From: Streptomyces sp. GSL17-111
GTDB taxonomy: Bacteria > Actinomycetota > Actinomycetes > Streptomycetales > Streptomycetaceae
Assembly (NCBI RefSeq): GCF_037911585.1
Contig: NZ_JBAJNS010000001.1
Location: forward strand, 5,069,501-5,133,500
Reading direction: 5' to 3'
Length of the DNA stretch: 64,000 nt
The translations under genes and the position numbers were made by a program. The notes beneath the pieces were generated by a model that made no database searches, was not told where the DNA came from, and worked only from the letters and a program-made list of their open reading frames with translations. The number at the start of each line of letters is the position of its first letter. Within the stretch, counting starts at the first letter, position 1. Below are positions 11,133 through 15,032 of the stretch, piece after piece.

Positions 11133-11307
11133 GGCGGGCCTGAAACGTCCGGGCCTGACGCGCGGTGCGGACGGGCCGGGTGTGGCCGGACTGTTGCAGG
11201 ACCGCCACAAACCGGGGGGATCCCCGTGCGCGCCGCGCACGGCACTGCGTAGGGTGCGAAGCGGCCTCCGCGCTCGTGGCGCGGTACACCACCGGAGAGG
11301 ACGAGAC

Positions 11308-11886
11308 GTGACGGTCAATCTGTCGAAGGGGCAGGCGATCAGCCTGGAGAAGGCCGCGGGGGGCTCCCTGTCCGCGGTGCGCATGGGCCTGGGCTGGCAG
11401 GCCGCGGCGCGGCGCGGCCTCTTCGGCCGGCGCAGCAAGGAGATCGACCTCGACGCCTCGGCGGTGCTGTTCGCCGAGCGGCAGCCCGTCGACGTGGTCT
11501 TCTTCCGTCACCTGCGCAGCGACGACGGCTCGGTGACCCACACGGGCGACAACCTGGTCGGCGGCGCGGGCCAGGGCGGGGACGACGAGGCGATCCTGGT
11601 GGACCTCCAGCGGGTGCCGGTCCACATCGACCAGATCGTCTTCACCGTCAACTCCTTCACCGGCCAGACCTTCGCCGAGGTCGAGAACGCCTTCTGCCGC
11701 CTGCTGGACGAGAACACCGCCACCGAGCTGGCCCGCTACACCCTGACCGGCGGCGGCTCCTACACCGCGCAGATCATGGCGAAGGTGCACCGGCAGGAGG
11801 GCGGCTGGTCCATGACCGCCATCGGCGCCCCCGCCGACGGCCGCACCTTCCAGGACCTGATGCCTGCCATCGCGCAGCACCTGTAG
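11308..11886 (+). CDS. TerD family stress protein
   Basis: A 192-residue single-domain TerD protein. It starts Met-Thr-Val-Asn-Leu-Ser-Lys-Gly-Gln at GTG 11308, with GGAGAGG (11294-11300) 7 nt upstream. Calcium-binding signatures are present: Asp-Leu-Asp-Ala-Ser-Ala near 50, and Thr-Gly-Asp-Asn-Leu followed by Gly-Asp-Asp-Glu-Ala-Ile near 78-93. TerD proteins are cytoplasmic beta-sandwich proteins tied to tellurite, oxidative and phage stress phenotypes; their biochemical role is unsettled. An unusual insertion of Arg/Gly residues (Ala-Arg-Arg-Gly-Leu-Phe-Gly-Arg-Arg-Ser) sits before the DxDxS motif. The next gene, 30 bp downstream, encodes a TerD-containing fusion, so the two probably act together. 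Confidence 0.92.
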   Translation: MTVNLSKGQAISLEKAAGGSLSAVRMGLGWQAAARRGLFGRRSKEIDLDASAVLFAERQPVDVVFFRHLRSDDGSVTHTGDNLVGGAGQGGDDEAILVDLQRVPVHIDQIVFTVNSFTGQTFAEVENAFCRLLDENTATELARYTLTGGGSYTAQIMAKVHRQEGGWSMTAIGAPADGRTFQDLMPAIAQHL

Positions 11887-11916
11887 AGACCGGACGTGGA
11901 CGAGGGGGAGCGGTCG

Positions 11917-13773
11917 ATGACGGCCGAGCTGGTGCGGGGACAGAACCACGCGCTGCCGGGTACGGACCTGACGGTCCACGTCGCGGCCGCACTCCCCGTC
12001 CTCGCCGGGATGACCCTGGCCGACGCGGACGGCCGCGGCCGCGAGGGCTGGCTCGTCCACGGCGACGCCCCGAGCCTCCCCGGGCTGGTCGCCCCCGGGC
12101 GCCCCGCGCCCGCGCACGACCTTGACCTCGACCTGGCCCGGCTGCCCGAGGGCGCCCACACGGTACGGGTCTGGCTCGCGCTCCCGCCCGGCGGGCCCGC
12201 CTCCTTCGCGGCGACGGGAGCGCCGCGCGTCGTCGTCGGCGACGCGGCCGGTGCCGGTCGGGTCGCCCACACCCTCAGCGGGCTCGCCGCCGAGACGGCC
12301 GTCACGGCCGTCGAGTTCTACCGCAGGGCGGGCGCGTGGAGGGTGCGCGCCGTGGGGCAGGGGTACGCGGGCGGGCTGGCGGCGCTGTGCGCCGACCACG
12401 GCCTCCCCGGTGCGGCGGCGCTCGCCCGCCGGGTCCTGGCGTCCTCGGTGGCGGCGACGCGCGCGCCCGCGCCGGTGCCGCGGGAGGAGTCCGCCGAGCC
12501 GCCCGGCCGCGTCGACTACCGCCACCCGCGCCGCGCGGCCCGGGCGCCGGTCGCCGACGCGGCCGTGGACGTCACGCACCCCGGCCGTCCGGCCGGACCC
12601 GAGCCCCGGCCGACCCCCGGCGGGCCCGACGCGCCGCCCCCGCCCGTCGCGGGGGACGCCTCGGGCTGGTCCATGGAGGAGCGGCTCCACAACCAGGTGT
12701 GGGGCATGTTCGAGGACCTGGCCCGCGCGGTCGCGGCCCACCGGAGCGCCGTCTCCTTCGCCGACGACCGGTTGGAGCGGGAGATCGACGAGGTGCTCGC
12801 CGACCCGGTCGGCCGCACCGGCCCGGCGGCCGAGCGGGCACGGGACCTGGCCCGTTCCCGGCACGGCGAGCTGACCGCCCGCGCCCGGGCCGTCCTCGAC
12901 CGGGACCTGGACCAGTTGACGGCCGAGGCCGCCGTGGTGGAACCGGCGCTCCCGCCGGCGTTCGCCCGGTGGGACAACCCGGTCTGGCACGGCTACCGCG
13001 TTCCCGAGCAGGCACCCCTGGCCCTGCGGTTGGGCGATCTGAGCCTGCCCGAGCGCATCGGCCTGCGCATCCCGATGCTGGTGCGGCTGCCGCTGGAGCG
13101 GGGGCTGTGGATCGACGCCGGCCGGGGCGACGGGCCGGCCGCCACCGTCCTGGACGCCGGGGAGCTGCGCCGCGAGGCCGGGCTGCTGGCGACGGCCGTC
13201 GCCGGACGGCTCCTCGCCGTGCACCCGCCGGGCCGCTTCACCGTGCGGGTCATCGACCCGGCTGGCTCGGCCGCGCACACGCTGCGTCCGCTGGTGGACT
13301 CGGGCGTGCTGCCGGAGCCGCCCGCACGGGGTGCCGCCGGGGTGGCGGCCGTCCTGGGCCGGCTGACCGAGCGGGTCGACCTCGTCCAGTTGGCCGTCCG
13401 CAACGGCGCCGCCGACGCGCTGCCGCCCGGCGTGGACACGAGCGAGCAGCTCCTCGTCGTCCACGACTTCCCGCACGGTTTCGACGACCGCGCCGTGACC
13501 CGGCTGCGGTACCTGGCCGACGAGGGCCCCTCGGTCGGCGTGCACCTGCTCCTGGTGGCGGACCGGGAGGACGCGGCCGAGTACGGCCCCCTCCTGGACC
13601 CGCTGTGGCGGTCCCTGCTGCGGATCACCCCCGTCCCCGACGACCATATCGCCGACCCGTGGGTCCGTCAGATCTGGACGTACGAGCCGCCGCACGTACC
13701 GCCGGGCAGCGCGATCCTGCCTCAGGTGCTCGGGACGCTCGCCGCCGCCCGCGCCCGTCCCGGACGCCGCTGA
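11917..13773 (+). CDS. TerD-like domain fused to an FtsK/EccC-like segment lacking a P-loop
   Basis: A 618-residue protein. Residues about 1-165 resemble a degenerate TerD fold, ending in Val-Glu-Phe-Tyr-Arg-Arg-Ala-Gly-Ala-Trp-Arg-Val-Arg-Ala-Val-Gly-Gln-Gly-Tyr. That stretch closely parallels the first domain of the 62-63 kb TerD gene, but the calcium-binding Asp motifs are missing. A Pro-rich linker follows (to about 245), then a helical segment, then about 260 residues resembling the region that precedes the ATPase core in Streptomyces FtsK/SpoIIIE-like proteins: Arg-Leu-Gly-Asp-Leu, Gly-Leu-Trp-Ile-Asp-Ala, Val-Arg-Val-Ile-Asp-Pro, Leu-Leu-Val-Val-His-Asp-Phe-Pro, Gly-Val-His-Leu-Leu-Leu-Val-Ala. 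No Gly-X4-Gly-Lys-Ser/Thr is visible. ATG 11917 follows GGGGGAG by 6-7 nt. Function is unknown; it is probably a scaffold working with the TerD protein encoded just upstream. Confidence 0.75.
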   Translation: MTAELVRGQNHALPGTDLTVHVAAALPVLAGMTLADADGRGREGWLVHGDAPSLPGLVAPGRPAPAHDLDLDLARLPEGAHTVRVWLALPPGGPASFAATGAPRVVVGDAAGAGRVAHTLSGLAAETAVTAVEFYRRAGAWRVRAVGQGYAGGLAALCADHGLPGAAALARRVLASSVAATRAPAPVPREESAEPPGRVDYRHPRRAARAPVADAAVDVTHPGRPAGPEPRPTPGGPDAPPPPVAGDASGWSMEERLHNQVWGMFEDLARAVAAHRSAVSFADDRLEREIDEVLADPVGRTGPAAERARDLARSRHGELTARARAVLDRDLDQLTAEAAVVEPALPPAFARWDNPVWHGYRVPEQAPLALRLGDLSLPERIGLRIPMLVRLPLERGLWIDAGRGDGPAATVLDAGELRREAGLLATAVAGRLLAVHPPGRFTVRVIDPAGSAAHTLRPLVDSGVLPEPPARGAAGVAAVLGRLTERVDLVQLAVRNGAADALPPGVDTSEQLLVVHDFPHGFDDRAVTRLRYLADEGPSVGVHLLLVADREDAAEYGPLLDPLWRSLLRITPVPDDHIADPWVRQIWTYEPPHVPPGSAILPQVLGTLAAARARPGRR

Positions 13774-13862: not shown

Positions 13863-13891
13863 TTGGTGATTCCTTGACCTCCCCTTAGGGT
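13863..13891 (+). promoter_or_regulatory. Probable terC promoter
   Basis: TTGGTG (13863-13868), a 17-bp spacer and TAGGGT (13886-13891) would start RNA near 13898, immediately before the riboswitch P1 helix at 13900. The placement, more than the weak -35, supports it. Confidence 0.5.
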
Positions 13892-13899
13892 GACATTTG

Positions 13900-14019
13900 C
13901 GGAGGGGAGTATTCCCACCTGCGATGTTCCCGTCAGTACGGGCCGACCGTTCGGCCCCGGGGCATCGGCCTGCGGCACTGCCCCGGGCGGAAGAGACCTC
14001 CGGCGACCACAGCCGGAGG
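13900..14019 (+). promoter_or_regulatory. yybP-ykoY (Mn2+) riboswitch with RBS-sequestering expression platform
   Basis: The family's invariant loop GGGGAGTA is at 13904-13911 and the closing AGAGACC at 13993-13999. The P1 helix pairs CGGAGG (13900-13905) with CCTCCG (13997-14002). The internal CTGC and CACTGCC segments also fit. Directly after the aptamer, CCTCCGGC (13997-14004) can instead pair perfectly with GCCGGAGG (14012-14019), which is the terC ribosome-binding site. The two helices share CCTCC, so ligand-stabilised P1 would free the RBS. The layout predicts translational ON control by manganese. Confidence 0.88.
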
Positions 14020-14027
14020 AGTGCTGC

Positions 14028-15032
14028 GTGGACGTAACCTGGACCACCTGGGCCGTGACGATTCTCGTTCTCTGTGCCCTCATCGCCGTCGACTTCTTCA
14101 TCGGCGGCCGCAAGCCCCACGAGGTCTCCATCAAGGAGGCCGGCATCTGGTCGGCCGTCTGGGTCGCCCTCGCCGTCCTGTTCGGACTCGGGTTGCTGCT
14201 GTTCGGCGACACGAAGTCCTCCGGTGAGTTCTTCGCCGGCTACATCACCGAGAAGTCGCTGAGCGTCGACAACCTCTTCGTCTTCGTCCTCATCATGGCG
14301 AAGTTCTCCGTACCCGCCATCTACCAGCAGCGGGTGCTGATGATCGGCGTGCTGATCGCGCTGGTGCTGCGCGCGGGCTTCATCGCCGCCGGCGCCGCGA
14401 TCATCTCCCAGTTCTCCTGGGTCTTCTTCATCTTCGGCGCCTTCCTCATCTGGACCGCGTGGAAGCTGATCGAGGAGGCCCGCGCCGACGAGACGGACGA
14501 GGAGTTCGAGGAGAACCGCTTCCTGAAGATGGTCGAGAAGCGCTTCCCGTCCACCGACCAGTACCACGGCACCCGCCTGACGATCGTGGAGAACGGGCGT
14601 CGTCTGATGACGCCGATGCTCATCGTCATGCTGGCCATCGGCACCACGGACGTCCTGTTCGCCCTGGACTCGATCCCGGCCATCTTCGGCCTCACTCAGG
14701 ACCCGTACATCGTCTTCACCGCCAACGCCTTCGCCCTGATGGGTCTGCGGCAGCTGTACTTCCTCATCGGCGGCCTGCTGAAGAAGCTCGTCCACCTCTC
14801 CTACGGGCTGTCCGTCATCCTCGGCTTCATCGGGGTCAAGCTCGTCCTGCACGCCCTGCACGAGCTCGGCGTCCACGTGCCGGTGATCAGCACCCCGGTG
14901 TCGCTCGGCGTCATCTGCGCGGTGCTGGTGGTCACCACCGTCACCAGCCTGATCGCCTCCAAGAAGCAGAGAGCGGCAGCGGCCGACGAGGCGGACCCGC
15001 AGGACAAGGACAGCGACGTCCCGGCGCGCTGA
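14028..15032 (+). CDS. terC: TerC family integral membrane protein, probable Mn2+ exporter
   Basis: A 334-residue membrane protein with about 8-9 hydrophobic helices and a charged cytoplasmic loop near residues 155-190 (Glu/Asp-rich, then Lys-Arg). The TerC family acidic intramembrane motifs are visible: Asp-Phe-Phe-Ile-Gly-Gly-Arg near 22, Ser-Val-Asp-Asn-Leu-Phe-Val-Phe near 83, and Thr-Thr-Asp-Val-Leu-Phe-Ala-Leu-Asp-Ser-Ile-Pro near 208. TerC/Alx relatives export manganese, and the yybP-ykoY element upstream supports that role here. GTG 14028 follows the RBS GGAGG (14015-14019) by 8 nt; a longer frame from 13890 would run through the riboswitch and is rejected. Its last 92 nt overlap an antisense reading frame. 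TerD genes lie just upstream, but transcription is probably separate. Confidence 0.95.
   Translation: MDVTWTTWAVTILVLCALIAVDFFIGGRKPHEVSIKEAGIWSAVWVALAVLFGLGLLLFGDTKSSGEFFAGYITEKSLSVDNLFVFVLIMAKFSVPAIYQQRVLMIGVLIALVLRAGFIAAGAAIISQFSWVFFIFGAFLIWTAWKLIEEARADETDEEFEENRFLKMVEKRFPSTDQYHGTRLTIVENGRRLMTPMLIVMLAIGTTDVLFALDSIPAIFGLTQDPYIVFTANAFALMGLRQLYFLIGGLLKKLVHLSYGLSVILGFIGVKLVLHALHELGVHVPVISTPVSLGVICAVLVVTTVTSLIASKKQRAAAADEADPQDKDSDVPAR

Follow-up and report, generated by a model that had tools for sequence, protein, structure and literature searches.

The terC gene of Streptomyces sp. GSL17-111 lies on the plus strand of the window, the 64,000-nucleotide stretch of DNA that was analysed, and its leader is directly preceded on the 5′ side by two TerD-domain genes (11182–13773). 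The 334-residue product contains a TerC domain (Pfam PF03741, E 2.1e-53; 181.2 bits against a curated cut-off of 27.8) and is 37% identical to E. coli Alx. We read the terC leader as an alx-type yybP-ykoY Mn2+ riboswitch that acts on translation, with a probability of roughly 0.9. The leader was analysed with R1, a covariance model trained solely on Streptomyces terC leaders, 27 of which were aligned over their full length (the genus alignment). The features of the locus are as follows:

13863–13868, plus strand: probable −35 element TTGGTG, aligned with the conserved TTTACC block of 51 Streptomyces leaders
13886–13891, plus strand: probable −10 element TAGGGT (TANNNT)
13899–14027, plus strand: whole leader ahead of terC, a probable yybP-ykoY (Mn2+) riboswitch in a translational ON arrangement
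13899–14004, plus strand: predicted Mn2+ aptamer (yybP-ykoY, alx-type), from RNAalifold, pair counts and the R1 match to E. coli alx; 106.8 bits with R1, of which it is a member by construction
13900–13905, plus strand: P1.1 5′ arm CGGAGG, partner 13997–14002 (CCTCCG), with class-wide compensatory changes
13906–13911, plus strand: L1 5′ strand GGAGTA, invariant in the genus alignment
13913–13915, plus strand: P1.2 5′ arm, partner 13989–13991, from pair counts in genus and class
13922–13932, plus strand: P3 5′ arm, partner 13958–13967, with compensatory changes
13933–13939, plus strand: L3, predicted Mn-binding loop UCAGUAC, its UCA invariant in the genus alignment and matching UCA41AUUC of L. 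lactis
13940–13945, plus strand: P3.1 5′ arm, partner 13952–13957, with compensatory changes in 4 of 6 pairs (genus)
13969–13972, plus strand: P4 5′ arm, partner 13984–13987, from pair counts in genus and class
13992–13996, plus strand: L1 3′ strand AGAGA, invariant in the genus alignment
13997–14004, plus strand: switch strand CCTCCGGC, either P1.1 3′ arm or anti-Shine-Dalgarno, from the sequence and class covariation
14012–14019, plus strand: Shine-Dalgarno (SD) arm of the OFF hairpin, GCCGGAGG, with a ligand-free pairing probability of at least 0.99
14028–15032, plus strand: terC, GTG start

A preliminary description of this DNA had proposed a complete yybP-ykoY signature ahead of terC, and both motif strands can indeed be read directly, GGGGAGTA at 13904–13911 and AGAGACC at 13992–13998. 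The L1 motif, GGGGAGUA (13904–13911) with the 3′ GAGACC (13993–13998) that closes P1, is invariant in the 27 genus leaders. The P1 pairing, previously given as GGAGG with CCTCC, is recovered as the six-base-pair P1.1. The 5′ boundary given there has to be moved, as position 13863 sits on the probable −35 box, outside the RNA. TANNNT occurs at an equal offset in 43 of the 51 Streptomyces leaders, with the TTTACC block 17 nt 5′ of it, and this box predicts a transcript start near 13898–13900, at the first base of P1.1. A candidate pairing of CTCCCC (13881–13886 region) with GGGGAG was rejected, as it lies 5′ of the predicted transcript start.

Unguided RNAalifold on the 27 leaders returns P1.1, P3 with the 7-nt internal loop L3, P3.1 and P4. 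In the genus alignment 97.6% of pair cells are paired and 9 pairs are compensated, a level reached by none of 500 shuffles, with the count scored on a structure named after the RNAalifold fold had been seen. Across the actinomycete class, 95.3% of cells are paired and 23 of 29 pairs, P1.1 included, are compensated among 62 R1 matches, whose alignment was fitted to the R1 model and leans toward the assumed structure. P1.1 varies little within Streptomyces because it overlaps both L1 and the SD complement; its covariation comes from other genera. P1, P3/P3.1 and P4 are thereby backed by covariation around a junction that has no P2 helix, and three-way-junction members of the yybP-ykoY class are on record (review PMC9495176). 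A 3-bp GGA/UCC mini-hairpin placed by RNAalifold within L1 was dropped for P1.2, which covaries across the class.

A match to the Rfam model RF00080 had been expected, with its absence named as grounds for refutation, and on this point the preliminary description was not borne out: an Rfam 15 scan of the window, at the gathering score and at E 10, returned no RF00080 match and nothing else relevant. The same model finds no match in Mn-responsive E. coli alx at E 10, scores the E. coli mntP riboswitch at 42.3 bits, under its cut-off of 45, and gives matches in 7 of 296 actinomycete-class genomes, none above the cut-off. Since RF00080 misses alx and underscores mntP, we regard the absent match in the window as a false negative from a test without power. 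RF00080 is dominated by an ACAUAC consensus, which L3 of the terC leader does not follow. R1 matches 175 of the 296 genomes, in 67 of 114 genera, as well as genomes in other classes of the phylum, and also picks up alx-like leaders of proteobacterial TerC genes. It matches E. coli alx with 42.4 bits (E 6.5e-8 in 6.3 kb) and, with scores of 36 to 52 bits, also recovers every one of the seven sub-threshold RF00080 matches in the class, which gives two independent ties of the terC leader to the known riboswitch class. The gene context is likewise one of manganese: among 60 fetched R1 matches outside the window (59 in other genera, 1 in Streptomyces), the gene on the 3′ side is TerC in 53 and UPF0016/GDT1 in 2, both Mn homeostasis families. 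Homology to Mn-responsive alx, class-wide covariation and gene context together uphold the assignment as a Mn-type aptamer.

The riboswitch type itself is known, and an actinomycete terC with a yybP-ykoY leader has been known since 2013 from C. glutamicum, where the cg2157 (terC) leader was assigned by Rfam at 49.1 bits and its transcript observed (PMC3890552); its likeness to the present leader is one of annotation. That annotation rested on an older RF00080 version, and the current Rfam 15 model misses nearly all actinomycete members. More than half of the actinomycete genomes sampled carry the terC subtype, to which the current model is blind, and genome annotations therefore probably lack these riboswitches. 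In the openly accessible literature searched, we found no description of a Streptomyces terC riboswitch. A terC RNA motif has reportedly been published under its own name; a literature search for a separately named motif returned solely telomerase TERC.

The switch strand also pairs with the terC ribosome-binding site exactly as previously claimed: CCTCCGGC (13997–14004) and GCCGGAGG (14012–14019) form 8 Watson-Crick base pairs around a 7-nt loop, GACCACA (14005–14011), with the SD core GGAGG (14015–14019) 8 nt from the GTG at 14028. P1.1 (13997–14002) and the anti-SD:SD hairpin (13997–14004) thus compete for one strand. CGGAGGGGAGTA is identical across 51 distinct Streptomyces terC leaders, as the search pattern required, and this identity, together with the retention of aptamer and SD hairpin in the 27 aligned leaders, argues that the pairing is not due to chance. 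The compactness that had been called unusual is real, the loop of the SD hairpin measuring 7 nt here and mostly about 30 nt in relatives. The mutual exclusion of the two pairings, also proposed before, is supported by the common strand and by triple covariation: across the class, the 5′ arm varies in concert with the switch strand and the SD, the three reading, for example, CGGAGG/CCTCCGGC/GCCGGAGG, CGAGG/CCTCGAAC/GTTCGAGG, GAAGG/CCTTCGGC/GCCGAAGG and CAAGG/CCTTG/CAAGG. With their own partners, P1.1 helices average 5.46 bp (shuffled 4.70, sd 0.08) and SD helices 6.21 bp (shuffled 4.95, sd 0.16), each longer than in all 500 shuffles. Ligand-free folding with the aptamer helices held gives the OFF hairpin an advantage of about 5.6 kcal/mol. 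This three-way covariation offers clean mutants for a translational Mn switch.

P1.1 is the helix stabilised by Mn2+ in the yybP-ykoY class (PMC6754395, PMC9190785), and the arrangement therefore predicts that translation is ON with Mn2+. At low Mn2+, 13997–14004 would pair with the Shine-Dalgarno and keep terC silent; at high Mn2+, L1 and L3 would dock around the ion, held by N7 of A13935 and phosphates, and stabilise P1.1, which would then occupy the switch strand, free the SD and allow TerC to be made, and the product may in turn lower cytosolic Mn2+ or move it towards export. A13935 is invariant in the genus alignment and is the counterpart of L. lactis A41, whose N7 contacts Mn2+ in the ion-bound structure (PMC6754395), and of X. 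oryzae A48. The L. lactis yoaB riboswitch (PDB 4Y1I) resembles the UCANYAC of terC leaders in its L3, UCA41AUUC, yet it is transcriptional and has a four-way junction with P2. E. coli alx (TerC family, Mn2+/pH) shares the GGGGAGUA/GAGACC L1, a GUCAUUACG-type L3 and a TerC-family gene on the 3′ side, but it has AAAGG as P1.1 and a longer leader, whereas in Streptomyces the switch strand pairs directly with the terC SD over a 7-nt loop and the transcript probably starts at P1.1. Reporters of E. coli alx and mntP respond to Mn2+ (PMC9603457). If this reading holds, Streptomyces terC is placed under RNA-based manganese control.

A real aptamer could control chiefly transcription, for instance by making a Rho site accessible when OFF, and SD pairing would then play a secondary part; the L. 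lactis and X. oryzae relatives, which are transcriptional switches (PMC6754395, PMC9190785), give precedent for this. An intrinsic terminator was considered and rejected, since no U-run follows the SD hairpin and intrinsic termination is thus unlikely; moreover, the SD itself is a covariation partner of the switch strand, and we consider predominantly transcriptional control improbable. Doubt of another kind concerns the ligand. A leader that counts Mn2+ among several effectors and mainly detects pH or a different divalent ion has some precedent: in alx, the nearest characterised relative, alkaline pH acts as a second input whose effect adds to that of Mn2+ (PMC9603457), and in the mgtA member from S. 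pneumoniae the affinity for Ca2+ exceeds that for Mn2+ (review PMC9495176). Against this, the terC leader retains the Mn-sensing adenosine, and RNAs of its class also stand ahead of dedicated Mn exporters, which makes such a sensor rather unlikely. A conserved hairpin that binds no ligand and merely sets a low terC translation rate would agree with the high stability of the SD hairpin by itself in silico, but it leaves the L1/L3 conservation, the P3/P4 covariation and the alx homology unexplained and is hardly credible. A translational Mn2+ switch is the reading that we retain.

The host genome carries a second predicted Mn riboswitch on the minus strand (G000:C1, about 4588021–4588129; L001 1454–1562), ahead of a UPF0016/GDT1 gene whose identity is confirmed by Pfam. 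It has L1, the architecture and an SD-like pairing of the switch strand in common with the terC leader and scores 36.8 bits with R1, but its L3 is the canonical GUCGACAUAC instead of GUCAGUAC, its P1.1 is GAAGG and it reaches 22.9 bits with RF00080, under the cut-off. This difference recurs more widely. TerC leaders have L3 of the form GUCANYxC (103 scored motif hits; of three unclassified TerC-linked hits, one has a variant L3 and two lie within genes), and UPF0016 hits have GUC[AG]ACAYRC in 36 of 36. Proteobacterial TerC leaders carry the UCANYxC-type L3 with small variants; the ACAYRC type or a close variant is found ahead of mntP of E. coli and Comamonas and GDT1 of Acinetobacter, Pseudoalteromonas, Hydrogenophaga, Embleya and Nonomuraea, and L3 of Azospirillum mntP is close to that type. 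In Actinomycetes as in Proteobacteria, the L3 type thus tracks whether the regulated gene belongs to TerC or to GDT1/MntP. It is possible, though doubtful, that the two subtypes stay tied to gene family across both groups and differ in the Mn2+ threshold or the metal/pH selectivity that they set, so that exporters are staggered within the cell; if switch and gene descended together, the split would need no functional tuning. The split makes tuned Mn set-points directly testable.

A role of TerC in Mn handling is well supported by analogy with characterised homologs. TerC of V. parahaemolyticus lowers cell Mn (PMC13274385), and so does Alx, as cited in PMC10550928. The TerC proteins of B. subtilis also metalate exported enzymes, and a Mn riboswitch in turn controls B. 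subtilis meeY (ykoY) (PMC10550928). Mn export may be the main role of TerC in this Streptomyces, with metalation of exoenzymes as a live alternative (PMC10550928).

Five of the 60 fetched R1 matches precede other genes. One encodes a PGPGW membrane protein and one a GreA/GreB-like protein; the other three products have no Pfam match, two of them being alike, with a single one standing for both in the Pfam scan. All five genes are possible new members of a Mn regulon. Genomes G210, G166, G173, G244 and G388 have at least two R1 matches, and in the pairs fetched both matches lie ahead of TerC paralogues.
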